The position numbers were made by a program, and so were the translations under genes. Positions 616 through 63,813 of a stretch of 64,000 nt of DNA are shown one piece after another. A model generated the notes under the pieces. It had not been told where the DNA came from and made no database searches. It worked only from the letters and a program-made list of their open reading frames with translations. Positions within the stretch are counted from its first letter, which is position 1. Each line of letters begins with the position of its first letter. The stretch is from Sulfitobacter sp. SK012 (GTDB lineage: Bacteria > Pseudomonadota > Alphaproteobacteria > Rhodobacterales > Rhodobacteraceae). The stretch spans positions 3,782,001-3,846,000 of the forward strand of contig NZ_CP025804.1 in assembly GCF_003352085.1 (NCBI RefSeq), written 5' to 3'.

Positions 616-2111
616 CAGCGGCGGCTCTTGAGGATCGATTGCACTTGGGCAACCAATTCGCCACGCGGCACCTCGATCTGGCTGGGGCGGTCTTTCCACT
701 CTTCATGCGTCGCGTGTTCGGCAATTTCTGCGCCCAAGATCAGGTCTTTGATCTGAACCAAACCATTATCGAACTCATCGCCGCCCGCAATAATCGCGAC
801 AGGGCTGTTGCGACGATCTGCGTATTTCAACTGGTTGCCAAAGTTTTTAGGGTTGCCCAAATAAACTTCTGCCCGGATCCCGGCCTGCCGCAGTTCAGCT
901 ACCATCGCCTGATACTCGGCCATCCGCGCGCGATCCATCACCGTTACAACCACGGGACCGTCCGATTTCGCATCCAGACGCCCCTTGGCGTGCAATGCGG
1001 CCAACAACCGGTCTACACCGATGGAAACACCCGTTGCCGGCACTTCCTGGCCGGTGAAACGCTTAACGAGATCGTCATAGCGCCCGCCCCCCGCAACAGA
1101 CCCAAACTGCCGCTTGCGTCCTTTGTCATCGAGGATTTCAAAGGTGAGCTCTGCTTCAAAAACAGGACCGGTATAATAGCCAAGTCCGCGCACAACCGAG
1201 GGGTCGATCTCGATCCGGTCGGGGCCATACCCGCCTGCCGCAAGCAACCCTTCGATGGTATCAAGCTCTGCCACACCGTCGAGGCCAATTGCGGAGCCAG
1301 TCACGAGGGCGCGCAAAGCATCAACCGTTGCGGTTCCAGTCGCACCTTTGGCCTGCATAAAGCCCATGACCACGTCTGCCTGCGTATCAGACAGCCCTGC
1401 ACCACCAGTGAAATCGCCGCTGTCATCTTTGCGACCTGCGCCAAGCAATGCACGAACACCGTCCGTGCCAAGGCGGTCGAGCTTATCGATCGCACGTAGC
1501 ACGATGCCGCGCTCCGCTTCTTTGTCGTCCCCAGAAAGCCCTGCGACTTCCATCACACCGCTAAGCACTTTGCGGTTATTCACACGAACAATGTAGTCAC
1601 CACGCTCGATGCCAACCTCTTCGAGGCAGTCAGCCAGCATTGCGCAAATCTCGGCGTCAGCGGCCACACTGGAGGCACCGACAGTATCCGCATCGCATTG
1701 ATAAAACTGACGAAACCGCCCCGGACCCGGCTTTTCATTTCGCCAGACAGGACCCATGGCATAGCGGCGGTAGGGCGTCGGCAAGTCATTGCGGTGCTGC
1801 GCGTAGACGCGGGCTAACGGTGCCGTCAGGTCGTAACGCAACGCGAGCCAATCGCCGGGTTTGTCAGCCTCTGCATCTTCTTGCCAGGCAAAAACACCTT
1901 CGTTTGGGCGGTCAACATCGGGCAGGAACTTGCCCAAAGCTTCGACCGTCTCAACACCGGCACTTTCCAACGCATCAAAGCCATAGCGGCTGTAGACGCT
2001 GGCAATCTTAGCAAGCATATCAGCGCGCTGCGTGACTTCTGCGCCAAAATAATCACGGAAACCCTTGGGCGTTTCGGCCTTGGGGCGGGGGGTCTTTTTG
2101 GGCTTGGCCAT
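615..2111 (-). CDS. hisS: Histidine--tRNA ligase
   Basis: 498-residue class II aminoacyl-tRNA synthetase charging tRNA-His. Visible signatures are [10 protein letters not shown] near residue 92, the motif 2 region [19 protein letters not shown] near 120-138, the histidine-binding stretch VRGLGYYTG in the C-terminal half of the catalytic core, and motif 3 [15 protein letters not shown]-terminal anticodon-binding domain follows ([21 protein letters not shown]). The length matches the longer alphaproteobacterial HisRS form. The lysine- and proline-rich first 16 residues precede the usual start of the fold (PKGFRDYFG). It is first of a coupled pair with hisZ. The 124-bp gap to the divergent slyX must carry both promoters. 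Confidence 0.95.
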
Positions 2112-2235
2112 GGGGCACCTCGGGGCTGCGCAGACGCGGGTAATTTCGACCTGCGTCTACCGGATGGTCTGCGACGGGGCAAGCCGCGCGACCGACCCAT
2201 TGCCAAAGACGGCCCAAGCGCCTAATTCCAACGAC

Positions 2236-2430
2236 ATGGAACAGCTTGAAGAACAGATTGCGCACATGACGCGGACGGTCGATGACCTGTCGGATATTGT
2301 GGCCCGCCAAGAGCTTGAGATTACAGCGCTAACCCGCCGTGTTGAGATGCTGATGCGCCGCGAAGGTCAGCGTGAGGCTTCCGGTGCCGGCGGTATCGTC
2401 GTTGGTGACGAACGGCCACCCCACTACTAA
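2236..2430 (+). CDS. slyX: SlyX family protein
   Basis: 64-residue protein, divergent from hisS. It is almost entirely a predicted coiled coil: heptad-spaced hydrophobics run through EEQIAHMTRTVDDLSDIVARQ and LEITALTRRVEMLM, and it ends in the PPHY C-terminus typical of SlyX. The molecular role of SlyX is not established. An in-frame upstream extension exists, but the SlyX match begins at this ATG, which fits the family's length of about 70 residues. Confidence 0.85.
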   Translation: MEQLEEQIAHMTRTVDDLSDIVARQELEITALTRRVEMLMRREGQREASGAGGIVVGDERPPHY

Positions 2431-2434
2431 GCGG

Positions 2435-3256
2435 TCATTTAATGGCGACGGCCAAGGTTCTGCCGCTATGCACAAGAAATTCTGACCAGCGGGCATTGTC
2501 GCCATAGAACTCGTAAGCGCTGACAAAGACTGTCGTTTTATCGAGACTTGAGACTCTCTTACCGCAGGGCTTGTTTTTTCTGGACCCGCAGACGCGGCGT
2601 TTTAAGCCGTCATAAGCCACATCTGTCGCAGCGTGAGGCAGGTTTTTACCCGCCGGGCTGAAACGCAGCTGTTCATACAGCGAAGGCGACCCAAAGAGTG
2701 CCGTTGCAGCGGTGAACTGCCGCGGGCATCCGTCAGTGTACCCGGTGATGTAGAAAGTGCGTTTTGCAATAATATTCGGGGCGGAATCGTATAGTTTCAG
2801 CCCCCTTTTGCTCAACACATCAACCTTTGAGCCAAGAGGTTTTCCTTTGGCTTCACATACGCGCGCGATGCTACCAAAGGGCAGAACAGTGCCAAAGGCG
2901 ACGTCTTGGGCATCTGGCCCAGTGGCCGCGGGTGGCGCAGAAATCGGGGCCAAAGCTGCGGTCTGCTGCGTTGGAGGCGTGGCGTTTTCCGCCGCATCAT
3001 TTGCAGAGCTTATCAGGCGGCTGAAGAAACCGCCGCCGGTTGAGGCAGCTGGCGATGCCGCGATACTCGGTGCATCCCCTTTAGCAGCATCGGTTCCAAA
3101 GAAGCCTTCGCGCTCAAGTTCAGCGGCGTCAGGCAATGCCGCAACGACAGGATCGGTGTCAGCCACATCAACGTCAGACAGACGTGGCACCCCGGCAAGT
3201 GGATCACTGCATCCTGCAAGGACAGCCGCGATAGCGAAGCCCTGAAATATCCGCAC
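2435..3256 (-). CDS. Putative lipoprotein of unknown function
   Basis: 273 residues from a GTG at 3256, chosen because a purine-rich GGGGGGA lies about 7 bases upstream and because this start yields a classic lipoprotein signal: VRIFQGFAIAAVLAGC, with the lipobox cysteine near residue 16. A low-complexity Pro/Ala linker spans roughly residues 60-120. It is followed by a cysteine-containing globular C-terminal domain (VCEAKGKPLG, GYTDGCPRQF, RRVCGSRKNKPCGKRV) with five or more cysteines that could form disulfides in the periplasm. No family with a known role is recognised. It ends 4 bases after the convergent slyX stop. Confidence 0.75.
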   Translation of the reverse strand: MRIFQGFAIAAVLAGCSDPLAGVPRLSDVDVADTDPVVAALPDAAELEREGFFGTDAAKGDAPSIAASPAASTGGGFFSRLISSANDAAENATPPTQQTAALAPISAPPAATGPDAQDVAFGTVLPFGSIARVCEAKGKPLGSKVDVLSKRGLKLYDSAPNIIAKRTFYITGYTDGCPRQFTAATALFGSPSLYEQLRFSPAGKNLPHAATDVAYDGLKRRVCGSRKNKPCGKRVSSLDKTTVFVSAYEFYGDNARWSEFLVHSGRTLAVAIK

Positions 3257-3327
3257 AACATTCCCCCCTAAGAAAACGAGATCCGTGATAGCGCACAGCA
3301 ACGTCTTCGTCCAGCGGGGGCTATGGG

Positions 3328-6300
3328 TCAGATTTCCTCAACCTCCAGCACACCACCAAGTGAACGAATAGCGCCCTTGATCTGCGGTGTGACGGGGTAC
3401 TGCACGCAAAGGTCCACTTCGACTTCGCCCGGCAAGCTAGGATCCATCAAACACAGCTGCACTGGACCAAGCGCGGATTTGACCGCTGATTGCGCCCCAG
3501 CCAACACGTCGGCAACCGCACCAATCGCACTGGGCGTTTCAATAAAGATGCGCAACCCCATGCCGCCTGCATCTTCTACTGCGGTATCAATCGGGACAAC
3601 GGAGCGACCCAGCAGCTTAAGTTGATCTGCCTCTAGCGTGGCCTCGACGGAAATCACAACTTTGGCCCCTGTTTCCAAATGTTCGCGGCATTTTTCCAAC
3701 GTGTCAGAAAACAGCGTGACCTCAAAAGCGCCTGTGGTGTCAGACAGTTGCGCAAAGGCAAACCGGTTGCCGCGTGCTGATTTGCGTTCTTGCCGTCCGG
3801 CGACAACACCAGCCAGTTTAGCAACCAAAGGACCGTTCAGAGCCTTTTCTGCCAACTCGTCAAGCGTGATCACGCCCTTGCGTTTGAGTGGCCCCATGTA
3901 GTCATCAAGCGGGTGCCCCGAGAGATAAAAACCGACGGCCTTGAACTCTTCTGTCAGGCGTTCAGCGGCCAACCAATCGTCCCCAGGCATCATGCGCGGT
4001 TCGGGCAGATCATCGCCCGCTTCGCCAAAAAGCGAGACCTGATTGGAGGCTTTTTGCTCGTGGATCGCGGCGGAATAACCGACCAGCGCATCAAGTGCGT
4101 CAAAGACCCGGCGACGGTTGGGATCAAGCTGATCGAACGCACCCGAACGCGCCAACATTTCGAGCGGACGTTTGCCGACGCGCTTAAGGTCAACCCGTCG
4201 CGCAAGATCAAACAACGTGGCAAACGGGCGGTCAACACCTTCCAGCTTGCGGCCTTCGGTGATGAGTTTCATCGCCTCAACGCCAACGTTTTTCAACGCG
4301 CCCAGCGCATAGATCAGCGCCCCATCAATAACCTTGAAAGTCGCATCGGATCTGTTGACGCAAGGCGGCACCCAAGGCAGTTCAAGCCGCTTTCGAACCT
4401 CTTCGAAATAGACCCCAAGCTTGTCCGTGAGGTGAAGATCGCAGTTCATCACACCGGACATAAACTCGACAGGGTGGTTCGCCTTCAGCCAGGCCGTTTG
4501 GTAGCTGACGACCGCATAGGCGGCCGCGTGGGATTTGTTGAAACCGTAGTTGGCGAATTTTTCCAGAAGGTCGAAAACTTCTGCCGCTTTTTTCTTTTCA
4601 ACACCATTTTCCATGGCGCCTTTTTCGAACTTTGGACGTTCCTTCGCCATCTCTTCGGCGATCTTCTTACCCATGGCACGGCGCAACAGGTCAGCCCCAC
4701 CAAGCGAATAACCCGCCATAACTTGCGCGATCTGCATAACTTGTTCTTGGTAGACGATAATCCCCTGAGTTTCCTCAAGAATATCATCGATCAGCGGATG
4801 GATAGACTCGCGCTCTTTTAGCCCATTCTTGACCTCGCAATAGGTCGGAATGTTCTCCATTGGGCCAGGTCGGTATAGCGCCACAAGCGCCACGATGTCT
4901 TCGATGCAGGTAGGTTTCATGCGCTTGAGCGCATCCATCATGCCCGAGCTTTCAACCTGAAACACTGCCACCGTCTTGGCACCAGCATAAAGCTTGTAAG
5001 ACGCCTCATCATCCAAGGGGATCGTCGCAATATCGTCTACCAACCCTTCAGGCGGAACAAACAACTCTGTTCCGTCCGCAGCAAGATGCAAGTGGCGACC
5101 ACCTGAACGGATTTGGTCAACAGCATTCTGGATCACAGTCAAGGTTTTTAGGCCAAGAAAGTCGAATTTCACCAGTCCAGCCTGCTCCACCCATTTCATG
5201 TTGAACTGCGTAGCGGGCATGTCAGAGCGCGGGTCCTGATACAGCGGAACAAGCGCATCCAAAGGCCGGTCGCCAATCACCACGCCCGCGGCGTGGGTCG
5301 ATGCGTTCCTGAGCAGACCTTCGACTTGTTGGCCGTAGTCAAGCAGCCGCGCGACTACCTCTTCGTTGCGCGCTTCTTCACGCAATCTCGGCTCGTCCGC
5401 GAGGGCTTTTTCAATGGAAACCGGCTTGACGCCTTCGACCGGGATCATCTTGGATAGACGGTCGACCTGCCCATACGGCATCTGCAGCACGCGCCCGATA
5501 TCGCGCACAGCAGCTTTGGACAACAGCGCACCAAAGGTGATGATTTGCCCGACCTTGTCTCGCCCGTATTTTTCTTGAACGTAGCGGATGACCTCTTCGC
5601 GCCGGTCCATGCAAAAGTCGATGTCGAAGTCGGGCATGGAGACACGTTCGGGGTTCAGAAAACGCTCAAACAAAAGCTGGTAGCGCAACGGGTCAAGGTC
5701 CGTAATCGTCAGCGCATAGGCAACCAGCGATCCCGCACCAGAACCACGACCGGGGCCAACAGGAATGCCCTCATCTTTGGCCCATTTGATAAAATCCGCA
5801 ACGATCAGAAAGTAGCCGGGAAATCCCATGCCCTCGATGATCCCCAGCTCAAATTCGAGCCGCTTTTCGTATTCCTCAACAGTGTCAGCATGCGGGATCA
5901 CGGCCAGTCGCGCCTTTAGTCCTTCGATGGATTGGCGGCGCAGCTCTTCGATCTCGTTATCTGCAAACTTAGGTAGGATCGGATCGCGGCGATAGGTCTT
6001 AAAAGCGCAGCGCTTGGCGATTTCGACTGTATTTTCAATCGCTTCAGGCAGGTCAGCAAATAGTGTGACCATCTCGGATTGGGTTTTGAAATAGTGCTGC
6101 GGCGTCAAGCGACGGCGCGGTTCCTGCTGATCAACATAAGCCCCTTCGGCGATACAAATTAGGGCATCATGGGCCTCATACATCTTTGTATCTGGGAAAT
6201 AGACATCATTGGTGGCGACCAGAGGCAGGTCCATTGCGTATGCCATTTCGACGAAACCGCGCTCCGTTAGGCGCTCATCTTCGGGCTGGCCGTCATCGCC

Positions 6301-7152: not shown

Positions 7153-8526
7153 ATGGACATCACGTTTCTTCTGAACGGAGAGAGTGTGTCACTTCACGAC
7201 ATATCCCCCACGACAACGGTGCTCGACTGGCTGCGTGAAAGACGCGGGCTTACTGGCACCAAGGAAGCATGCCGTGAAGGCGACTGCGGAGCGTGCACCG
7301 TGATGATTTCGGACGAAGCAGGCAACCGCGCGCTCAATGGCTGCATCCTGTTTATGCCGCAAGTCCACGGCAAGCATATCACCACCGTCGAAGGATTGGC
7401 CGAGGCTGATGGCACCTTGCATCCCGCCCAGACCGCGATGATCGACCACCACGGCAGCCAATGTGGGTTTTGCACGCCCGGTTTTGTGGTTTCGATGGCC
7501 ACGGCGCAGCTTAACGGAAATGACGATCACGACACACAGCTTGCTGGCAACCTTTGCCGCTGCACTGGCTACGCCCCCATCATTCGCGCCGCCGAAGAGT
7601 TAGCCCAAGCACCCGTTCCTCCACATCTGGCTTCGCTGCCTCAAAACTTGCCTGTGGTGGAAGGTGCAGCGGCACCTACCCACCCAGAAAGTGGCGATGC
7701 GCTGGCCGAGTGGTATGCTGCAAATCCCGATGCGACGCTGATCGCTGGGGCCACCGATGTTGGCCTTTGGGTGACCAAGCAGTTCCGCGATCTGGGGTCT
7801 GTGGCTTTTCTCAACCGGTGTTCTGACCTGAGCGGCATCAAGGACGAAGGCGATCATTGGCACATCGGGGCCACCACGACGATCACTGATCTTGAGCAGC
7901 ATTTTGCGCCGCATTTTCCTAGCCTTGCAGCGATGCTTCGCCGCTATGGGTCTGTGCAAGTGCGCAATGCCGCGACCATCGGCGGCAACATCGCCAATGG
8001 CTCGCCTATTGGGGATGGAGCCCCTGCGCTGATTGCGATGAATGCCACGCTACATCTGCGCCACGGGAATACCCGGCGCAGTATGCCGCTTGAGGATTTC
8101 TTTATTACTTATGGTAAACAGGACCGTGCCAAAGGCGAATTTGTCGAGGCTGTTAGCGTACCAAAACAGCCCGACACCTTGCGGTGCTACAAGCTTTCAA
8201 AACGCTTCGACCAAGATATATCTGCTGTCTGCGCTTGCCTGAACATAACCCGCGATGGCGATAATATTACGCAGGCGCGCCTCGCCTATGGCGGTATGGC
8301 CGGCACCCCAAAACGCGCATCTCAAACGGAGGCTGTCCTGACAGGCCAGTCTTTTTCGGAGGAAACGTTTCGAGCGGCGATGCAGGCCCTAGCTGAAGAT
8401 TTCCAGCCCCTCGATGATATGCGCGCCTCTGCCGAATACCGTCTCAAGTCAGCGCAAAACCTGTTGCTGAGGTATTATCTGGAGGCAACGGGTACCCAAA
8501 CCGACCTGCATCTGGTGATGTCATGA
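7153..8526 (+). CDS. xdhA: Xanthine dehydrogenase small subunit (FeS/FAD)
   Basis: 457-residue subunit that carries electrons from the molybdenum site of XdhB to FAD and NAD+ during hypoxanthine/xanthine oxidation. The N-terminal plant-type [2Fe-2S] domain has C40-x4-C45-x2-C48 and C63; the second [2Fe-2S] domain has QCGFCTPGF (C104, C107) and NLCRCTGY (C135, C137). An FAD-binding domain follows ([16 protein letters not shown] near residue 196; [15 protein letters not shown] near 275). All eight cluster ligands are present. It starts an xdhABC unit and overlaps xdhB by ATGA (8523-8526). The neighbouring purine-type ABC importer supports a role in purine catabolism. Confidence 0.95.
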
Positions 8527-10886
8527 GCGTCGCAAAGCCCCTGCCCCACGACGCCGCCCGCCTTCATGTGACGGGTACCGCGCGTTATGTTGACGACATC
8601 CCTCTCCCAGCGGATACGTTGCATATTGCCTTTGGCCTCAGCACAATCGCTGCGGGCACGCTCGACGCGGTGGATTTATCGGCTGTGAATTCCGCCCCCG
8701 GTGTCGTCGCGGTTCTTACCGCCGACGATCTGCCTCACGCGAATGATGTATCACCTTCCAACCATGACGAGCCGCTGCTTGCCATGGGTCAAGTTCATTA
8801 TGTCGGGCAGCCAATATTTATGGTCATTGCCACATCTCATCTTGCGGCACGGGCAGCCGCACGGTTGGGTGAATTTGCATTCACACCGGCAACAGCCCTT
8901 CTCAGCATCGAAGATTCGTTGGCTGCAAACAGCCGTTTTGAGGACGGTCCCCGCATCTATACTAAAGGTGATCCGGACGCTGCGTTTCAAACAGCACCGC
9001 AGAACTTGACCGGATCGATAATTGTTGGCGGTCAGGAACACTTTTATCTCGAAGGGCAAGCATCCCTCGCGTTGCCCCAAGAAGGTGGCGACATGGTTGT
9101 GCACAGTTCAACCCAGCACCCGACCGAAATCCAGCACAAGGTTGCCGAGGCACTGGGGACCCCAATGCACAGTGTCCGCGTCGAGATACGGCGCATGGGC
9201 GGCGGATTTGGCGGCAAAGAAAGCCAGGGCAATGCTTTGGCAGTCGCGTGCGCCATTGCTGCGGCACGCACGGGCAAGCCCTGCAAAATGCGCTATGACC
9301 GCGACGACGATATGATCATCACCGGCAAACGGCATGATTTTCGCATCGACTACACCGTCGGGTTTGACTCCGATGGACGCATCCAGGCGCTTGATTTTAA
9401 ACAATATGTCCGCTGCGGTTGGGCGATGGACCTTAGCCTCCCAGTTGCTGACCGCGCCATGCTACATGCTGACAACGCTTATCATCTTAGCGATGTCCGG
9501 ATCACCTCGCACCGTCTCAAGACGAATACGCAATCAGCAACCGCATTTCGTGGCTTTGGCGGACCTCAAGGGGTTGTCGGAATTGAGCGCGTCATGGATC
9601 ATATAGCGCAGCATCTGCAACGCGACCCGCATGAGGTCCGGCGCGCTAATTACTACGCTGATAGCGCCCAAGAACCCTCATCTGGCACTTTGCAAGACAC
9701 GCAGAGTGCAACAAATGCTGCTTCTCGCGATGCGCCGACTGCCAAGGCGGCCACCGTTCAGACCACCCCCTATCACCAGCCCGTCACCGACTGCGTTATC
9801 AACGCGCTGACTGATCGTCTGGCGTCTTCTTCTGACTACGTCGCGCGCCGAGCGGCCATTGCGGCATGGAACGCAGAGCACCCCGTGCTGAAACGCGGAA
9901 TTGCATTGAGCCCGGTAAAATTCGGCATTTCCTTTACGCTCACCCATCTTAATCAGGCAGGCGCATTGGTGCATGTTTACCAAGATGGCTCGATCCACCT
10001 GAACCACGGCGGAACGGAGATGGGTCAGGGTCTGTTTCAGAAAATCGCGCAGGTTGCTGCCGCACGGTTTGGCGTCTCAACCGATCTCGTGAAAATCACG
10101 GCAACAGACACAGGCAAAGTGCCCAACACATCTGCAACCGCCGCGTCCTCAGGCACCGACCTGAATGGCATGGCCGTTCAAGCAGCATGTGACACCATAC
10201 GCACACGTATGTCCGAGCATCTCGCTGAACTGCATCAAACCACACCGGAGGCCGTGCATTTTGAAGACGGCATGGTGTCGATAGACGAAACCAAGATCAC
10301 CTTCGCTCAGGCCGCGGCCTCGGCTTATGTAAACCGGGTCAGTTTATCGGCCACTGGTTTTTACAAAACCCCAGATATCGAATGGGACCGGATCAAAGGG
10401 CGTGGCCGGCCTTTCTTTTACTTTTCCTATGGTGCGGCGGTGACCGAAACTGTGATCGACACCCTCACGGGCGAGAACCGCATTTTACGGGCTGACATTC
10501 TGCATGACGCTGGCGCTTCGCTGAACCCAGCGCTTGATATTGGCCAAATTGAAGGTGGCTATGTTCAGGGCGCTGGTTGGCTGACCACAGAAGAACTGGT
10601 TTGGGACGCAAAGGGCGTGCTGAAAACCCATGCGCCTGCGACCTATAAAATCCCGTCCTGCTCTGATCGCCCGGATGTGTTTAACGTGGCGCTTTGGGAT
10701 CAACCAAACCCTGCGCAGACGATTTACCGTTCCAAAGCCGTGGGAGAGCCACCTCTTATGCTTGGCATTTCTGCTTATCTGGCGCTGGCCGATGCGGTGG
10801 CCGCCTGTGGTCCGAATTTCGGCGACCTGCAAACACCCGCGACTGCCGAAGCGGTGCTGAACGCGGTCGAGCGGGCACGCGGATGA
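8523..10886 (+). CDS. xdhB: Xanthine dehydrogenase molybdenum-binding subunit
   Basis: 787-residue molybdopterin subunit that hydroxylates hypoxanthine and xanthine to urate. Moco-contacting motifs are GGGFGGKES (near residue 225), RGFGGPQG (near 344), GTEMGQG (near 497), GGYVQGAGW (near 678) and [12 protein letters not shown] (near 738), the last holding the expected catalytic glutamate. The length is normal for the bacterial XdhB type. It overlaps xdhA upstream and xdhC downstream by four bases each, so the three are almost certainly one transcript. A Ser/Thr/Ala-rich stretch near residues 380-415 (between [11 protein letters not shown] and TTPYHQP) is longer than I would expect and may be a surface loop. 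Confidence 0.95.
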
Positions 10887-31475: not shown

Positions 31476-31889
31476 TTAACCACGTTCGAAGCTATGGAAC
31501 TGATAGCTAACCGACACCTTGCCGCGTTTCGTCGCAAGTTCCTTGCCAGAAACAAACATCCGTCGGCGCGAAACATAGGCCTCGATCACCCCATCAAGGC
31601 CGATCATAGTTTCGGCAACGCTATCGTCTTCTTCGGAGCCAAGGGCAAGAAAGGTGATCTTGCGGGGTTGGATTTGACCACATTGAGCGAGTGCGTCTAT
31701 CAAGGCCATGCCGCCGTCATACTCAGACAATGCGCCAAGGGAAAAATCGCTGATCAACAACGCATCACTGATGGGCATTTCGATCCTGATCCAAAAATGC
31801 GTGTCATCAGGGAGCGAAAACTGTTCAGAAAAGCCGTCGCTACGGCGAACCAATGCGGGAACGCGGGCGAGTGGACGCTGCTCTTCCAT
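31476..31889 (-). CDS. Hypothetical protein divergent from the STING-like gene
   Basis: 137 residues from an ATG at 31889, chosen because GGAGAA lies 6-11 bases upstream; the open frame continues further upstream without any feature. Soluble alpha/beta protein, with WIRIEMPISDALLISDFSLGALSEYDGGMALIDALAQCG and ITFLALGSEEDDSVAETMIGLDGVIEA as its best-formed parts. No family is recognised. It is divergent from the gene at 32028 and separated from it by 138 bases, so the two may share a control region. Confidence 0.55.
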   Translation of the reverse strand: MEEQRPLARVPALVRRSDGFSEQFSLPDDTHFWIRIEMPISDALLISDFSLGALSEYDGGMALIDALAQCGQIQPRKITFLALGSEEDDSVAETMIGLDGVIEAYVSRRRMFVSGKELATKRGKVSVSYQFHSFERG

Positions 31890-32027
31890 GACACTTCTCC
31901 GGTTCGTCAGATCTGCGACAATCAGTGGTTGCTTGACGCATGGGGACCTTTCGTTAAGCATAGTTAACAAACAACAGCCCGGCAAGCGTTTGGCCCCATA
32001 TTCAGGGGAGGTTTCCTGCGCAGGAAG

Positions 32028-33155
32028 ATGAGGTACAGTTTGGCAATTGGACTTGGCGCACCGCTTAAACGGGTGTTCATCATTGGCCCGATGAATGACG
32101 ATTTGGATGAAAGCGGGCTTTCCAATGCAACACATATTCCGAACATCGCGGCCGCCACCCGCCGCGTTTTAGCCCAACATACGGCCAATGGCGCGCCAGA
32201 ATGGGATGTGATTATTCCTCCGAACCATACAGGCGACATCCCTCCCCATATCTTTGCTAACATCATGCATTGCGATATCGCGATTGCGGATCTTTCAAAC
32301 GCTAGCCCGAACGTGTTTTACGAACTTGCAATCCTGCATGCCAATGGCATCCCTGTTATCCTGTTGACGGAACGCGATACGGAAGACAAACAGCCAAAGA
32401 ACGTATTCTATACCGTACAAAGCAATCTGACCGTAGTGGACGACTATTCTGAGGCCGCGATAGAGCGCGCCCTGATAACGCCCGCGGGCACGGGCGCACA
32501 GCCAGTTCTGGAACAGCTCGCCTTTGCGCAACGCAATGTCCACCGGAGCAACCCGATCAGCAACTATTTTGGTGGTGTGCACCTAATCAACGTCGCCTCC
32601 ACCACGGGACTGGCGACCGGGCAGTTTTACAACTTTTTGCAATGGGCGCTGCGCGAAGGCGGTATCTTTCAGGATTTTCCAGAACTAGAGGGCTTGATCA
32701 TTTTGCGCCCTGCGCGCGTCAGCGAAGTGGACCGGGCCACAGGCACCCTGATCCAACGCTTTGGTGACGAGATCACAGACAATGACGATAACCCAGTCAT
32801 GGACGATCTGGGTCGATCTAAGAAAGAAATCAAACGACAATTCTATCCGCATAAGGGCCACCCGCGAGGCGGCTACTTCTTTCAACGGATTGGCAATTAC
32901 CTGATCGATTATCCGACACCGATCAGCAGCCTTTCGGTCAGCCAGCAATACCGTGCCGCCGCCGACTATGTCCGCGACTATGCAGAGGTCGATGATGACG
33001 ACGGAATCGCCCCTATTGAGGCCCGCTTGATCGAGATCTATTTTGAAACACTCCGCCGATTGGCGAACGATCCCGCGAACGGGTGTAGCTTTCAAAATGT
33101 GCGGATCCTAACCCTTGAAGAAGCCATTGCAGTGCTGGACACGCAAGCCTCCTAA
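32028..33155 (+). CDS. Two-domain protein: NDT/TIR-like N-terminus and STING-like C-terminus
   Basis: 375 residues. N-terminal part (about 14-150) is a Rossmann-like nucleoside deoxyribosyltransferase/TIR-like domain: RVFIIGPMNDD, then DIAIADLSNASPNVFYELAIL (81-102) with Glu99 in the place of the catalytic glutamate, then GIPVILLTE. C-terminal part (about 170-370) resembles STING: GLATGQFYNFLQ (194-205) corresponds to the GLAWSYYIGYL helix of human STING, LIILRPAR (223-230) to its LLPLD strand, and LIDYPTPISSLSVSQQY (292-308) to LEYATPLQTLFAMSQY; the last helix region (EIYFETLRRLAND) also fits. In bacteria such proteins bind a cyclic dinucleotide and trigger an effector, in CBASS usually NAD+ loss. 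No cyclase gene is visible nearby. STING call is by eye; start could also be a TTG at 32040. Confidence 0.7.
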   Translation: MRYSLAIGLGAPLKRVFIIGPMNDDLDESGLSNATHIPNIAAATRRVLAQHTANGAPEWDVIIPPNHTGDIPPHIFANIMHCDIAIADLSNASPNVFYELAILHANGIPVILLTERDTEDKQPKNVFYTVQSNLTVVDDYSEAAIERALITPAGTGAQPVLEQLAFAQRNVHRSNPISNYFGGVHLINVASTTGLATGQFYNFLQWALREGGIFQDFPELEGLIILRPARVSEVDRATGTLIQRFGDEITDNDDNPVMDDLGRSKKEIKRQFYPHKGHPRGGYFFQRIGNYLIDYPTPISSLSVSQQYRAAADYVRDYAEVDDDDGIAPIEARLIEIYFETLRRLANDPANGCSFQNVRILTLEEAIAVLDTQAS

Positions 33156-34634: not shown

Positions 34635-34709
34635 TGGGATGTAGCCAAGTGGTAAGGCAACGCTTTTTGGTAGCGTGTACCGTAGGTTCGAATCCTACCA
34701 TCCCAGCCA
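34635..34709 (+). tRNA. tRNA-Gln (anticodon TTG)
   Basis: A complete cloverleaf: acceptor arm TGGGATG / CATCCCA with discriminator G and encoded CCA; D arm GCCAAGTGGTAAGGC; anticodon stem ACGCT/AGCGT with the 7-base loop TTTTGGT, giving anticodon TTG; T arm GTAGG TTCGAATCCTAC. It reads CAA (and CAG by wobble). It marks the border between ordinary chromosome on the left and accessory DNA on the right. Confidence 0.97.
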
Positions 34710-34936
34710 ATACCCATCAGATCAGCTGCCAATGGACCATAAGCGTGCAGTTTTTGGCCAACTTCATGCATATTCGTGTCAAGAAGTTTGTTTTTGCCGA
34801 ATTCCTCTCCGCAGATGAGGCTTAAGTGCGTTTTTGCACATTAGATTCGGCGAATTGCGTCGACCACACAGCACTGTCGCTTCACTCATTTTGGAATGTT
34901 CGGAGCCGATGCGGCCGAATTGCCCTCAAAATGAAG

Positions 34937-36841
34937 CTACTTGAGGACTCCCTCGACATCCTCGCGGAGATAAAGCGGGCCGTAATCCTCTCCATTTGGC
35001 GCAAACGGTTTAACCTCTGCCGCCTTCAGTTTCGCAAGCAATGATGCTTTTTTCAGGCCAGACTCATCTCTCATTATCTTAGTTGTCACAAAGCGTTTGT
35101 GAAATTCTTCGATATCGCTTGTTGAGGCATAGACCCACTCGCCACCAAATTTCGGATGCGGCATGCGTGTCGCAGGGGTGTGACCGGCAGCCGCAAGACT
35201 TTCGAACCATCCTTGGGTGCGTACACCAACTGATCGGCCAAAGGTGGCAGCAGTAATCAAAGGACCGCCAGCGGCCTCTTGTTCTTGAGACTTCATCCGG
35301 TCGATCTCTTCCTTCAGGACACACAACGCTGCGTACCCCTCAAGATCCGTACGGCGAGCCAGTTTTAGATTACCAGCACGTAGTCCGGCAATTATTTTCC
35401 CGACGCTTAAGTCAGAGCGGTTTTTGGCCTCCTGTATTCCTTCCCACCGTTTGTCTGAGGGCTCTATTCGAACAGCCATCGCTTGAAGTTCAGCGACTAA
35501 GGCAATGCCGTCCGACTTCCGCCAAGGAGAATTGATCGTAGGGATGTTGATCCGAGGCACCAACACGCCATCAATGGCCAATGAAGCAAATTGCCCCTTC
35601 TTTGCGCCCATCGCTCGCTGCATTCCGATAGGACCAACCAGCGTCGGAATTTCCGCCAGCAGGTCAGCAAAGGTTGCTGCGTCGAAGGTTTTTCGAGAAA
35701 TGGGCCTGTCATCGTCAGCAGCAATCGCGCCAGCATCAATTAGGCATTGTTCAAGTAACACAGGCCCGATCCCTGTCTCTTCCGATGCAGTCAGAATTGA
35801 GTGCAGTTGCCTTACAGGCTGGGCAATCCCAAGAACAGTTTCTCCGGCAGCAACCGGCCAGATGCCGACGATGCCATCCCGCAGAATTTTCCGAAATGGG
35901 GTGAAGTCTTCTTTGTCCAGATGTGCCTGACTGAAATCGATGAATAAATGACCAAAAGCCTTTTGCGGTTTGGCGTTGGAGCCATCAGAAAGGGCGGCAA
36001 GCTCGTTCAGTGCATTCCGGATTGCTGCCTCTCCATGGCTTGCTACACAAAAGCCCAAGGTCCGGGCCCGCTGAAGCCGCGCACTTGGATCCAAATGAGA
36101 CACATCCTCCAATCGCAGTAGTTCTGTACCCAGAAGCGTACAAAATGTCGTTGCAGCATAAAGTGTGTGATCAGCGAGCCATGTATCGTCAGCTCCCGTT
36201 TGAAGACGGGTGTCGAGCCAAGTGTCGTAAGGCGAAGGCGTCATGCATGGCTGCTCTAAACTACCTTCCAGGACGTCTTTCAGGATCTCGGCGAAGCGAG
36301 ATGAAAGATCATATCTAACGGACTGGGGTGTGTGCTTCCACAGCGGCACCAGAGGATGGCAATGTTCGACGCAAAGATCGATTTCTCGCACTTGCCAATC
36401 CCCACGCATCGTCATTTGAGCGAGCGGTCGGAGATGATCAGCTTCGGCATCTTTACGCAAACAAACAGGACAGCCTCGTATGATTGGGTTCCTGAGTGCA
36501 CGAGAGACAAACACCTCACCTCGAAAGATCGTCCGAAAATCGCCGACACCCCTTCCCGTCCAGGAAATGAGTTCTTCGAGTTGAAGGTCACTTAGTCCGC
36601 CACTTGCGGCAAGCCTGTGCAAAGCAGCATCTTCGAGATTGACTATCTTCTTAAGCGAAAATCCCATGTCCAATGCGAAGTCAGCAGCGCATATTCCGTT
36701 CAGCGCCGCGATCCGAGATAGAAATGACGGGATCGTTTCCCTGTGGTTCGGTTCGGGACGGAGGGGGAGTGGTTGTAACACACTGTGCGAGATACTGCCT
36801 CTGGACGGAATACGAAAGCCATTTTGGCTGAGGGTTATCAT
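34937..36841 (-). CDS. TniQ family protein (orphan transposition target selector)
   Basis: 634 residues. The TniQ domain is visible at the N-terminus: LPLRPEPNHRETIPSFLSRIAALNG (25-49), followed by a zinc site made of CPVC (124-127) and CVEHCHPL (157-164). A helix-turn-helix-like DNA-binding part follows near the C-terminus (AATFGRSVGVRTQGWFESLAAAGH). In Tn5053/Tn7-type elements TniQ links the target DNA to the TnsC ATPase. Here no transposase or ATPase gene adjoins it, though a TnsA/TnsB-like pair starts at 63.0 kb. Its stop is about 230 bases from tRNA-Gln and it reads towards it. The true start may be later, as the first 20 residues have no match. Confidence 0.8.
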   Translation of the reverse strand: MITLSQNGFRIPSRGSISHSVLQPLPLRPEPNHRETIPSFLSRIAALNGICAADFALDMGFSLKKIVNLEDAALHRLAASGGLSDLQLEELISWTGRGVGDFRTIFRGEVFVSRALRNPIIRGCPVCLRKDAEADHLRPLAQMTMRGDWQVREIDLCVEHCHPLVPLWKHTPQSVRYDLSSRFAEILKDVLEGSLEQPCMTPSPYDTWLDTRLQTGADDTWLADHTLYAATTFCTLLGTELLRLEDVSHLDPSARLQRARTLGFCVASHGEAAIRNALNELAALSDGSNAKPQKAFGHLFIDFSQAHLDKEDFTPFRKILRDGIVGIWPVAAGETVLGIAQPVRQLHSILTASEETGIGPVLLEQCLIDAGAIAADDDRPISRKTFDAATFADLLAEIPTLVGPIGMQRAMGAKKGQFASLAIDGVLVPRINIPTINSPWRKSDGIALVAELQAMAVRIEPSDKRWEGIQEAKNRSDLSVGKIIAGLRAGNLKLARRTDLEGYAALCVLKEEIDRMKSQEQEAAGGPLITAATFGRSVGVRTQGWFESLAAAGHTPATRMPHPKFGGEWVYASTSDIEEFHKRFVTTKIMRDESGLKKASLLAKLKAAEVKPFAPNGEDYGPLYLREDVEGVLK

Positions 36842-37301: not shown

Positions 37302-37691
37302 TCATAACCAGAATATGACGGTTGCTGCGAGGGCGATTGCTGACAGGAATACCTTGGGGCAGCGGTCATAGCGGGTTGCGACGCGTCGCCAGTCTTTGAG
37401 CCTTCCAAACATTCGTTCGATGCGGTTGCGACGTTTGTAACGGCGCTTGTCGTATCTAACGGTCTTATTGCGTGACTTGCGGCCGGGGATGCAGGGCCGT
37501 GTTCCCCTGTCTGACAAGGCTTCTCGGAACCAATCTGCATCATAACCCCGGTCGGCGAGTAACCAATCAGCCTCGGGTAAACTGCTCAGTAGCGCTGCTG
37601 CGCCGGTGTAATCGCTGACCTGACCGGCCGTTATGAAGAAGCGGATCGGGCGACCGCTGGTGTCAGTGACGGCGTGCAATTTGGTGTTCAT
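37302..37691 (-). CDS. IS5-family transposase, second part (orfB)
   Basis: 129 residues if read from its own ATG, but the frame is open upstream to about 37740, so it is expressed as the second part of a fusion with orfA by frameshifting. It carries the downstream DDE region: ADRGYDADWFREAL holds the second aspartate and the block RYKRRNRIERMFGRLKDWRRVATRYDR holds the catalytic glutamate with the arginine/lysine pattern of the family. Ends 10 bases from the left inverted repeat. Confidence 0.88.
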   Translation of the reverse strand: MNTKLHAVTDTSGRPIRFFITAGQVSDYTGAAALLSSLPEADWLLADRGYDADWFREALSDRGTRPCIPGRKSRNKTVRYDKRRYKRRNRIERMFGRLKDWRRVATRYDRCPKVFLSAIALAATVIFWL

Positions 37692-37711
37692 GCCGCCCTT
37701 GGTCTGACCGA

Positions 37712-38059
37712 TTAGCCGCCCACGCCCCCCTTTTTAAGCCCCAGGCTTGAGGCCGTGCGGTGCGCTTTGAGGTAGGTCGCATCAATCGAGATCGTTTTAT
37801 TGTCGGGTGCTTTAGCCGCCAATCCAGTCATGATCCGAGCGAAAACGCCCATATCGCTCCAGCGCTTCCAACGATTGTACAACGTCTTGGGAGGGCCATA
37901 CGCGGCAGGTGCATCACACCAGCGTAAGCCATTGCGATTGATGAAAATAATACCGCTCAAAACACGTCTATCGTCAACACGTGGCTTGCCTCGGCTCCTC
38001 GGAAAATACGGGCGTAACCGCAACATCTGTTCTTCGGTTAGCCAATAAAGATTGCTCAT
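37712..38059 (-). CDS. IS5-family transposase, first part (orfA) with programmed -1 frameshift
   Basis: 115 residues from the ATG at 38059 (a GGGGGGC lies just upstream). It covers the N-terminal DNA-binding region (WLTEEQMLRLRPYFPRSRGKPRVDDRRVL) and the first catalytic aspartate (TISIDATYLKAHR). Near its end the slippery run AAAAAGGGGGG (37725-37735 on the plus strand as its complement) allows a -1 shift; the reading frame of orfB is offset exactly by -1 and continues with GRLIGQTKGGMN. Confidence 0.88.
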   Translation of the reverse strand: MSNLYWLTEEQMLRLRPYFPRSRGKPRVDDRRVLSGIIFINRNGLRWCDAPAAYGPPKTLYNRWKRWSDMGVFARIMTGLAAKAPDNKTISIDATYLKAHRTASSLGLKKGGVGG

Positions 38060-38307
38060 CGTGCCCCCCAAATCATTGGGGTCTGTGAATCATGACGACA
38101 AATCAGCAGCAAGGCATTTAATGGGTCCTGAACCTAGGCGGAAAAGGCCTCTTGGCATTCGAACAAAAGGCCGCGTAAATGAGTTGAGAGACTGCAACCT
38201 AAACGGGACAAGATCAATATACACTTGATGGCCTAAGAAACGCCTAAACACTAACGGTCGCTCGGACATGAAAATAGGTCGATTAACTAACATTGTGGAG
38301 GCCAAAA

Positions 38308-59152: not shown

Positions 59153-60539
59153 GAGTTATTGTCAAATCTGGTGTTTAAGGGTTTCTGGTCATGCGGCGAT
59201 CTGGCTGTTTTCAGTGGCTTCAATTCCGTCTTTGAATGCGACGCCGGTGATGACTTTGGCGAGGTAGTCAAAGCCGCGTAGTTTCCTCCAGTTTTGCTCG
59301 GCGCATTGCCCCAGCTTGAACATCATGTGCAGCATGCCGTCGCGTGAGAGGCAGCCCTTTGATCGTTTGGTGCGATGACGGATCGTGGCAAAGGCGGATT
59401 CAATTGGATTACTGGTGCGGATGCTTTGCCAGTGTTGTGCTGGAAAGTCGAAGAATGCCATGAGTTCCTCGCGGTCCTTTTGCAGGCACAGCGTCGCCTT
59501 GGGGTATTTGGGTTCGTAGGTTTTGATGAACAAATCTAAGGCCTTGCCCGCATCATCTTTGGTCTCAGCCTGCCAGATGTTGTGGATCGCAGCTTTGGCC
59601 TTTGGCTGAGACAGCTTGGGCAAACAGTTGAGCACATTCATAGTTTTGTGTTGCCAACAGCGTTGATGACGGGTCTCAGGATAGACTTCATCTATGGCGG
59701 CCCAGAACCCCATGGCACCATCTCCAATAGCAAGTTTCGGGGCGTTCATTCCCCGGCTTTTGAGGCTGAGGAGAGCCTCGCGCCAGCTCTGCGTGGACTC
59801 GCGCACCCCGTCCTCAATAGCCAAGAACCGCTTCTTGCCACGGGCTGTTACCCCCACAATCACAAGGGCGCAGAGCTTGTCATCCTCGCCCCGAAGGCCG
59901 CTGTGGACACCGTCAGCCCAGATGTAGACCAAGGGCTCATCGTCCAACGCTGCCTTTCTCCACTCGCCGTATTCGTTGGCCCAATCGCGCTTGAGCCGTG
60001 AGACCGTATTTGCCGACAATCCCGCCGCATCAGGGCCCAGAAGAACCTTGAGAGCCGAGCCCATTTCACCGCTGGAGATGCCCTTCAGATACAGCCATGG
60101 CAAGGCCGCTTCCAACGTTTTGGTTCTGCGCACGTACGGTGGCACCAGGGCCGAATGGAATGTCACGGGCTGGCCGTTTTTTGAGCGAACCTTGGGAATG
60201 CGCACGTTCACGGGGCCGATGCCCGTTTGGAACGGGCGCTCGGGATGATGCCCATTGCGCACAACAGTCGCATGACCGGCCTCAGTGCGCGCGGTGGTAA
60301 ACTGAGACAGATAGCTTTCAAGCTCAGCTTCAACGGCTGTTGCGATCAATTGCTGCGCTCCTGTTCTCAATAAATCCGTCAGCGCGTCCGTGATCCCGTC
60401 TCGACGCGAAAAATCAACAATGTTAGTCGTTTCCATGGTGGTGTATCTCCTTCGGTTGGGCTGCTGTCTCGCAACAACAAATCAACCAGATACGCCGCCA
60501 ACCTTCAAATCCCCCAAACACCAGATTCAGTCATAGCTC
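59153..60539 (-). mobile_element. IS256-family insertion sequence
   Basis: 1387 bases. The imperfect inverted ends begin GAGTTATTGTCAAATCTGG at the left and GAGCTATGACTGAATCTGG (reverse complement) at the right, each followed by GTGTTT. It is flanked by a 9-bp target duplication (CATGGTCAT). One transposase gene fills it. Confidence 0.95.
59189..60436 (-). CDS. IS256-family transposase (Mutator type)
   Basis: 415 residues. Mutator-like DDE transposase: first Asp in LVYIWADGVHSGLRGEDDKL, second Asp in KLAIGDGAMGFWAAIDEVYP, and Glu in TSNPIESAFATIRHRTKRSKG. The zinc/DNA-binding part lies at the N-terminus. Full length, likely active. Confidence 0.95.
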   Translation of the reverse strand: METTNIVDFSRRDGITDALTDLLRTGAQQLIATAVEAELESYLSQFTTARTEAGHATVVRNGHHPERPFQTGIGPVNVRIPKVRSKNGQPVTFHSALVPPYVRRTKTLEAALPWLYLKGISSGEMGSALKVLLGPDAAGLSANTVSRLKRDWANEYGEWRKAALDDEPLVYIWADGVHSGLRGEDDKLCALVIVGVTARGKKRFLAIEDGVRESTQSWREALLSLKSRGMNAPKLAIGDGAMGFWAAIDEVYPETRHQRCWQHKTMNVLNCLPKLSQPKAKAAIHNIWQAETKDDAGKALDLFIKTYEPKYPKATLCLQKDREELMAFFDFPAQHWQSIRTSNPIESAFATIRHRTKRSKGCLSRDGMLHMMFKLGQCAEQNWRKLRGFDYLAKVITGVAFKDGIEATENSQIAA

Positions 60540-61831: not shown

Positions 61832-62430
61832 TTAACCGTTTATCTTGGTCGCTTTAGGTTTCGTCACCTCCCTAAAATTCTGTTTCTGAGCGACCGCTCG
61901 AATGCACTTTCGATCTTGGGCTATCAACATGACCTGCTCTACCAAAACATACCAAATGGACGTCGCTAGCAATGATCGGACTGATCAGTGCGAGCCTAAG
62001 TCTTTGAGTGCCTTTCTCTCGTCTTTCTCACGAATAGGCGCCTGAAAAGAACGGACAGACTCCGTTCTCCTTTTTTCAGACCAATTCAAAAAACCGACTG
62101 TTTCGGCTGCTTTCGCAGACCGTCAACACTCGAACTACGTGAGGACAGACCAATGGGTCATTCAAATTACAACGCTTCGACTTCTTCTGCACAATCGGGT
62201 GGGAGAAATACAGTAACAGACGATAATGGCGGCCACGAGTCGTGGGATTATCCATCACCAAAGCTGGCGAAAGCGTCAGCGATCAAATTTGACTCGATCC
62301 ACGGTGTCCTGCCGTTCGACGGTGTGCGGAACCCTGGTTTCCGAAGCTCCACATCTATTACGGCTTGGTTCACCTACAAGACTGCCGCAAATGATGGGCA
62401 ACCCAAAGTCGCCATTTGTGAAAGTGCCTC
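61832..62430 (+). repeat. Tandem direct repeat, copy A (leader plus TnsA-like N-terminus)
   Basis: About 600 bases that match 62688-63284 (copy B) with offset 856 falling to 854. Both contain the same leader of about 320 bases and the first 92 codons or so of the TnsA-like gene. The leader is as well conserved as the coding part. Confidence 0.9.
62048..62076 (+). terminator. Hairpin with T-run in the leader of copy A
   Basis: AGAACGGA-CAGAC-TCCGTTCT followed by CC and T6. The larger surrounding sequence is also self-complementary (CTGAAAA ... TTTTTTCAG). It stands about 80 bases before the ATG and could be an attenuator or terminator that limits read-through into the transposase genes. An identical hairpin is present in copy B. 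Confidence 0.65.
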
Positions 62431-62713
62431 CGGAGGTGACTGGCCAATTGATTTGTACTTGATCAAAACTGACAATGCCAACAAGGTACGTTCGAAAGCT
62501 GTTGTCGGTAGACTTCTCGGAATGTCTACAAACTACACAGCCGTCAGAAGTCATGCATTGGCTGAAAAGCCGTATGTCGAGCGTTTATTTCGTACTATTG
62601 AGTCAGCCTTGCTGAAGCAGACCCATGGCGACACAGGCCAAAATTCGGGAGAGTTTCCTGAGAAGCTGCGGCCTGTCACCCGCTATATTAACCGTTTCTC
62701 TTGGTCGCTTTAG
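62153..62713 (+). pseudogene. Chimeric remnant: TnsA-like N-terminus joined to a DDE-transposase fragment
   Basis: 186 residues. The first 92 or so match the intact TnsA-like protein at 63007. After that the frame continues in different sequence, VRSKAVVGRLLGMSTNYTAV and HALAEKPYVERLFRTIESALL, which resembles the part of TnsB/TniA-type transposases around the catalytic glutamate. The protein then runs out in repeat copy B. It lacks the nuclease region and most of the transposase and is unlikely to be active. Confidence 0.6.
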
Positions 62714-63284
62714 GTTTCTTCCCCTCCATAGAACTCTGTTTCTGAGCGACCGCTCGAATGTACTTTCGATCTTGGACTATCAACATGACCTGTTCTACCA
62801 AAACATACCAAAAGGACGTCGCTCGCAATGATTTGACTGATCAGTGCAAGCCTAAGTCTTTGAGTGTCTTTCTCTCGTCTTTCTCACGAATAGGCGTCTG
62901 AAAAGAACGGACAGACTCCGTTCTCCTTTTTTCAGACCAATTCAAAACCGACTGTTTCGGCTGCGTTCGCAGGCCGTCAACACTCGAACTACGTGAGGAC
63001 AGACCAATGGGTCATTCAAAAAACAAAGCTTCGACTTCTTCTGCACAATCGGGTCGGAGAAATACTGTGACAAACGACAATGGCGGCCATGACGCGTGGG
63101 ACTACTCGCCACCGAAGCTTCCAAAGGCTTCGGCAATCAAGTTGGGCGATATTTATGGGGTGCAGCCATTCGATGGTGTTCGCAATCCTGGGTTCCGGAG
63201 TTCCACATCTCATACGATTTGGCTCACCTACAAGACTGCTGCCAACGATTGGCAACCCAAGGTCGCAATTTGTGAAAGTGCTGC
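62688..63284 (+). repeat. Tandem direct repeat, copy B
   Basis: The second copy of the leader-plus-gene repeat. It continues into the intact TnsA-like gene. 257 bases separate it from copy A and hold the transposase fragment. Confidence 0.9.
62904..62932 (+). terminator. Hairpin with T-run in the leader of copy B
   Basis: The same hairpin as in copy A (GAACGGA-CAGAC-TCCGTTC, then T6), about 75 bases ahead of the intact TnsA-like gene. Conservation of the stem in both copies suggests it has a role. Confidence 0.65.
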
Positions 63285-63813
63285 CGAAGCTGCGGTCGCA
63301 ATCGAAGTTCTCCTGTCGCCAGACATTCATGATGTCAGTTTTCAGCCGCTGACGGTCAAATTTGAGATTGATGGCAAGTCGCGTGAATACACGCACGATC
63401 TGCTTATGACTTTCAAATCCGGCCGTCGCAGTCTCGTTTTTGTTCGCAATGGGGAAAGTCTTTCCAGACCCAAAACCTGGCGGGAAATCTCCGCGATCCG
63501 TGAGGCGACACCGCCGACTGCCGCTAATGATTTAGTTGTTATCGATGCCGACGATTATTCCCGGCAGCGTCGAGAGAACCTATTTCGTATGCACGAAATG
63601 GTACAACAAACTGATCAAGAAGCGGACGACCTCACCCTCTTTGCTGCTGAAAACCTTAGTACTCTTTGGCAAATCAAAGACATCTTTCCTCATGTTGCGT
63701 TGCCGCAACGGCGTGTTTTCCGCGCCTGCCTTCGTCTGATCGCACGCAAGAAACTGACTGCCAACATGGATAATGTGATCCTTGAAACCTCCTGCGTGCA
63801 GGTGGCAGCATGA
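63007..63813 (+). CDS. TnsA-like endonuclease protein of a Tn7-like transposon
   Basis: 268 residues, GTGAGGA at 9-15 bases before the ATG. The middle part has the TnsA nuclease pattern: Glu94 in CESAAEAAVAIEVLL, QP in VSFQPLTVKF, Asp131 in THDLLMTF. The expected Gln/Glu-x-Lys is replaced by Phe145-Val-Arg147 (LVFVRN), so catalysis is doubtful. A helical C-terminus follows. In Tn7-type elements TnsA cuts the 5' strands while TnsB cuts the 3' strands. It overlaps the next gene by 4 bases. Family assignment rests on the pattern and on the next gene. Confidence 0.6.
   Translation: MGHSKNKASTSSAQSGRRNTVTNDNGGHDAWDYSPPKLPKASAIKLGDIYGVQPFDGVRNPGFRSSTSHTIWLTYKTAANDWQPKVAICESAAEAAVAIEVLLSPDIHDVSFQPLTVKFEIDGKSREYTHDLLMTFKSGRRSLVFVRNGESLSRPKTWREISAIREATPPTAANDLVVIDADDYSRQRRENLFRMHEMVQQTDQEADDLTLFAAENLSTLWQIKDIFPHVALPQRRVFRACLRLIARKKLTANMDNVILETSCVQVAA

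Follow-up and report, generated by a model that had tools for sequence, protein, structure and literature searches.

The present study concerns a 64,000-nucleotide stretch of Sulfitobacter sp. SK012 (NZ_CP025804.1, positions 3,782,001 to 3,846,000; hereafter, the window), in which one gene encodes a STING domain fused to an N-terminal domain of the DNPH1/nucleoside deoxyribosyltransferase (NDT) type. This protein, NDT-STING, keeps both a catalytic glutamate and the residues of a cyclic-dinucleotide pocket, and no CD-NTase cyclase was detected beside it or elsewhere in its genome. With two small genes, S1 and S2, it apparently forms a compact three-gene unit gained by acquisition. We tentatively favour, with slightly less than even confidence, the view that NDT-STING is a cyclic-dinucleotide-gated N-glycosidase with two accessory proteins, of the abortive-infection type and probably defensive.

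The C-terminal half of NDT-STING takes up the STING fold in the predicted model and in fold comparison. An independent STING profile scored it at 95.3 bits, against 5.2 bits for the best of 1000 shuffles. The Pfam model PF20300 matched it under its cut-off of 27.1 (22.3 bits, E 1.4e-4), and 7 of 9 relatives exceeded that cut-off. The pocket columns are strongly conserved: N202 in 18/18 rows, F203 in 16/18 (the other two have Met), and D294 in 17/17. These residues align with dinucleotide-binding residues of solved bacterial STINGs, namely F92/D169 of FsSTING and D251 of MySTING, whose roles in cyclic-dinucleotide binding are described in a passage of PMC8748872. According to the same passage, the lid Arg (R230/R233) of solved STINGs reads guanine, and the Asp touches guanine N2. 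The published lid motif, RX(Y/F) or RXR, is absent from the window protein, whose lid reads R280-G-G; RXR is found in three other loci (L019, L023, and L039; L and G numbers denote loci and genomes), and the upstream R270-Q-F272 of the window is not common to its nearest relatives. With its conserved pocket residues, NDT-STING may bind a cyclic dinucleotide, and it may assemble into filaments.

The N-terminal half belongs to the NDT/DNPH1 superfamily by its fold as well as by its catalytic Glu; Y98, E99, H104, and Y128 are each present in 18/18 rows. The initial annotation, made from the letters of the DNA, had proposed a STING-like C-terminal half and an NDT/TIR-like N-terminal half with a glutamate in NVFYELAIL; its STING and NDT parts hold. 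In DNPH1, a second active-site residue, the Asp D80, is catalytic. This Asp is absent from NDT-STING: column 75, which aligns with the D/N/A position of Rcl chains and whose human counterpart is altered in the D80N/D80A DNPH1 structures, holds I/V/A/L in 18/18. The aliphatic nature of this column disfavours an ordinary deoxynucleotide hydrolase. TIR NADases rely on a lone Glu. Since the lone Glu of NDT-STING resembles that of TIR NADases, NAD+ is the substrate that we would favour. A c-di-GMP-activated TIR-STING is an NADase, as stated in part of PMC8748872.

The claim of the initial annotation that no cyclase lies beside the gene was borne out, and a genome-wide check of the window genome (G000) with two CD-NTase models, PF18144 and NF041078, was also negative. 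Nineteen NDT-STING genomes were searched for CD-NTase, the genome of L041 not being among them. PF18144 found it in 4/19 (3/14 control genomes match), and NF041078 in 5/19, only one of them above the cut-off, with 0/14 controls and hence no positive control for this model. By either model, 6/19 genomes carry a CD-NTase and 13/19 have none detected. The six CD-NTase stretches all fall outside the NDT-STING loci read, and the 20 loci tested have no CD-NTase beside them; in G081:C3, a CD-NTase is located on the same contig, 19 kb from a truncated NDT-STING copy. GGDEF proteins occur in 14/19 genomes, G000 having three of them, and the c-di-AMP synthase DAC in 6/19, with none in G000. All 19 genomes have GGDEF or DAC, as expected anyway from their phyla. 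Since GGDEF proteins are the only synthases detected in the window genome, c-di-GMP, whether of the cell's own making or introduced by an invader, is the likely ligand.

The lid-tip Arg varies with DAC. An Arg at -16 to -11 from D294 in the modelled lid is present in 14/14 loci whose genomes lack DAC and in 0/6 with DAC, a post-hoc pattern for which the position range was picked after inspection; at exactly -14/-13, the counts are 13/14 and 0/6. The rows are not independent, as two pairs, L037/L038 and L044/L045, are almost identical, and a single genome supplied both L020 and L021. The best contrast is L049, the sole gammaproteobacterial member, which has the lid Arg though it falls within an Arg-free clade, and whose genome has GGDEF and no detected DAC. 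Against this association, G779 (L050) carries GGDEF plus DAC, yet no Arg. Parts of PMC10739871 describe c-di-AMP binding by bacterial STING without R230/F232 lid stacking and report, at second hand, that DisA is linked to STING genes. The pattern hints that NDT-STINGs could read housekeeping dinucleotides. That they sense these (c-di-GMP in Proteobacteria, c-di-AMP in Bacteroidota/Verrucomicrobiota) in place of what a CD-NTase makes is conceivable though doubtful. If true, the unit would stand guard over basal second-messenger levels and fire once an invader upsets them.

The unit spans about 2.2 kb and contains S2, S1, NDT-STING, and nothing more; S2 and the end of the QOR gene overlap by four bases. 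In 10/10 same-genus genomes read, taken from 22 carrying the MscS gene, QOR, MscS, and tRNA-Gln are contiguous and the unit is absent, so that the window genome has about 2.2 kb extra between QOR and MscS. The initial annotation had named a small divergent gene and the MscS channel as neighbours. The former stands as a partner, since S1 recurs at 11 of 21 loci, and S2 recurs at 4, but MscS is a genus core gene of the old chromosomal context and no partner, because it keeps its place without the unit. The S1 model has a pLDDT (predicted local distance difference test) score of 88.6, and no membrane segments are predicted. The S2 copy of the window matches no Pfam family even at E 1, whereas that of L019 matches PF14083 PGDYG (E 0.0038, under the family cut-off); S2 may thus be called PGDYG-like solely via this relative. 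The divergent intergenic region is presumably a shared regulatory region for S1 and NDT-STING; a consensus scan of it found no sigma-70-like site.

The 21 distinct NDT-STING loci are the window, L019-L023, L037-L042, L044, L045, L047-L052, and L055; a contig search gave 17 loci (L036-L052), three of which were repeats (L036=L019, L043=L021, L046=L022). L020 is a C-terminal piece only, and the end of a contig truncates L041. The hosts are Alphaproteobacteria, one gammaproteobacterial metagenome-assembled genome, Bacteroidota, and Verrucomicrobiota. In the family of the window genome, 17/394 genomes matched; by the STING profile, 5 have NDT-STING, and 12 share the NDT part only. At the phylum level, 2/364 genomes matched at E 1e-20, and among 335 genomes around G775, the centre genome alone did. 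The family is widespread yet rare, and its patchy presence (5/394), together with the discrete insertion, fits a mobile defence unit. In a 19-row tree (without L020 and L041), the sister of the window row is L019 (support 100/99), and a single clade (100/100) unites the gammaproteobacterial, Bacteroidota, and Verrucomicrobiota rows. In L020 (G081:C3:15000-34900), a second NDT-STING copy at about 7800-9600 is reduced to its STING end, directly behind two open reading frames (ORFs) resembling a transposase pair of the IS3 type; 3.4 kb further comes an ORF that, judged by eye, is VirB4/TrbE-like.

Iterated profiles over the ORFs of the 21 loci detected S1 at 11 of them, every one alphaproteobacterial, and S2 at 4, counts that may miss some on short contigs and stretches (L022, L055). 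The divergent S1-S2 order also adjoins NDT-STING in L019 and L041, and L042 has S2 alone. S1 occurs in 6/394 family genomes, 4 of which also carry NDT-STING. In L108 (G126:C21, 8978-12722), S1 lies near a DUF4231-like membrane protein of four segments and an NDT-like protein whose C-terminal half, of unknown kind, stands where STING would be; this is perhaps the same module with a different sensor. In L109 (G330), S1 has no clear partner.

A protein with hydrophobic segments stands beside NDT-STING in 14/20 other loci, a raw count without a chance-neighbour baseline (Table 1). No such neighbour was seen in L020, L021, L040, L042, L049, L055, or at the window locus, and a search of the window genome, lacking a positive control, found no relative of the L019 channel. 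Some sister loci hold further proteins. In L019, a large nSTAND1/TPR ATPase (1428-5216, E 1e-62) adjoins the TrkA channel and NDT-STING, and in L022, a TPR-like protein, judged by eye (3644-6064), has the same neighbours. Just upstream of NDT-STING in L049 (6480-9631), a patatin phospholipase is encoded together with an NDT-like protein whose sensor domain is of the TPR-S type.

Table 1. Features of the NDT-STING locus in the window and membrane-protein neighbours in sister loci
Feature	Location	Strand	Basis or remark
NDT-STING fusion, 375 aa	32028..33155	+	ORF call, profiles, predicted model, fold comparison
DNPH1/NDT-type domain, residues about 12-166	32061..32525	+	conserved Y98-E99 at 32319-32324
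STING domain, residues about 185-363	32580..33116	+	F203 32634-32636, lid-tip R280 32865-32867, D294 32907-32909
S1, small soluble protein, 137 aa from ATG at 31889 (longer ORF to 32135)	31476..31889	-	divergent to NDT-STING
S2, small soluble protein, 148 aa	30971..31417	-	behind S1, same strand
Divergent intergenic region, 138 bp, S1/NDT-STING	31890..32027	.	from gene coordinates
TrkA_N channel-like	L019, L045; L022; L044		Pfam (L019, L045); L022 with RyR just under cut-off; L044 resembles L045
DUF4231	L038; L037, L039		Pfam (L038); likeness (L037, L039)
8xMP	L041		
PDC-M50A (PADLOC phage-defence-candidate family)	L023, L052		140.5 bits (L023); 128.3 bits (L052)
SLATT/2TM with SLOG-like part by eye	L047, L048, L050, L051		SLOG Pfam weak, E 0.047-0.086

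Elsewhere in the window, on the far side of MscS, tRNA-Gln is followed by a TniQ gene (34635-36841, Pfam E 3e-16), which suggests a Tn7/Tn5053-like element at the tRNA. Transposase genes of the DDE_Tnp_1 type (37302-38071, E 5e-18) and the Mutator family (59189-60436, E 2e-61) are also present. The adjoining ORFs at 62153-62713 and 63007-63813 have closely alike N-termini (MGHS.NASTSSAQSG...) and probably reflect a recent duplication.

In the mechanism we favour, the STING half would dimerise around a cyclic dinucleotide, assemble, and turn on the N-terminal glycosidase. The latter would split an N-glycosidic bond, most likely that of NAD+ or a related nucleotide, so that the cell is stalled or a messenger is made. 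S1 and S2, as divergently transcribed soluble proteins, may have a tuning or sensing role. In sister loci, the membrane protein would be a likely but optional second-stage effector that senses the product or is acted on by it; action of a product via a membrane protein is predicted for SLATT proteins in a passage of PMC9503650. As the window locus has no membrane effector, the output here would be the glycosidase itself or S1/S2.

The same observations may be explained otherwise. NDT-STING could be a CBASS (cyclic-oligonucleotide-based antiphage signalling system) effector split from its cyclase, with the CD-NTase carried on other mobile DNA or missed by both models. The six genomes with a CD-NTase by one of the two models, one of them with its CD-NTase 19 kb from a truncated NDT-STING copy, favour this, as does CBASS being the established setting of bacterial STING in those parts of the literature drawn on here. 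We nevertheless consider it unlikely, as 13/19 genomes, including that of the window, have no detected CD-NTase and the six stretches are all apart from the NDT-STING loci read. The initial annotation had offered an orphan effector or a new kind of unit; its observation is confirmed, and this interpretation is supported in part.

It is quite improbable, in our view, that the STING half has lost ligand binding and serves as an assembly scaffold only, the trigger being detected by S1 (and S2), which then bring about assembly of the enzyme or its release. S1 is indeed the most recurrent partner and in L108 accompanies an NDT-like protein that has no STING, and a membrane effector is lacking at the window locus. 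However, the pocket residues N202 and D294 are kept across very distant members, and the non-alphaproteobacterial loci keep the STING half without S1. We likewise give little credence to a role outside defence, in which NDT-STING would serve the cell's own regulation as an enzyme of nucleotide salvage or NAD+ turnover under second-messenger control. GGDEF proteins are present, and DNPH1/NDT relatives are salvage enzymes going by PDB molecule names. Rare, patchy occurrence and insertion between core genes argue against such a role, as do partners occurring in candidate defence loci (PDC-M50A in L023 and L052).

In bacteria, STING is familiar as the CBASS receptor whose partner half is a CD-NTase. 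A family that keeps the pocket, with no CD-NTase detected in 13/19 genomes, makes other triggers testable. Should housekeeping c-di-GMP or c-di-AMP prove to be the trigger, guarding ordinary second messengers would be an original or a re-purposed task of STING, near animal STING's handling of bacterial dinucleotides. The STING-glycosidase pairing and S1/S2 are also candidates for an uncharacterised defence module.

The TIR-STINGs of CBASS (Cap12; SfSTING, PcSTING, MySTING, FsSTING) have a TIR domain where NDT-STING appears to have a DNPH1/NDT-like one instead. Furthermore, the window protein has the lid motif R-G-G and no CD-NTase next to it, and its genome gave no SMODS/cGAS match. From DNPH1/Rcl and the nucleoside 2′-deoxyribosyltransferases (PF05014), NDT-STING differs at the Asp position of D80N/D80A. 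The sister loci L044, L045, L047, and L050 resemble Thoeris and SLATT/TrkA-RyR systems in pairing a TIR-related enzyme with a membrane protein, some SLOG-like by eye, but the enzyme of NDT-STING carries STING, and the window locus has no such effector, SLOG or macro-domain. Burroughs and Aravind 2020 and the 2015 nucleotide-network paper reportedly treat SLATT, SLOG, and RyR neighbourhoods, so that some of the partners may have been listed before. DrHyd-STING fusions have the same domain pair as NDT-STING; according to a passage of PMC10732462, which cites Burroughs and Aravind 2020, fusions of STING with a deoxyribohydrolase exist in other bacteria. In choanoflagellates, a portion of PMC12424679 describes standalone STINGs in cyclase-free genomes, with c-di-GMP binding. 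With both already in print, our finding is not wholly new. Lastly, the DisA-STING pairs reported at second hand in PMC10739871 are alike in that STING is tied to a housekeeping-type dinucleotide synthase instead of a CD-NTase, but the window NDT-STING has no adjacent synthase of any sort.
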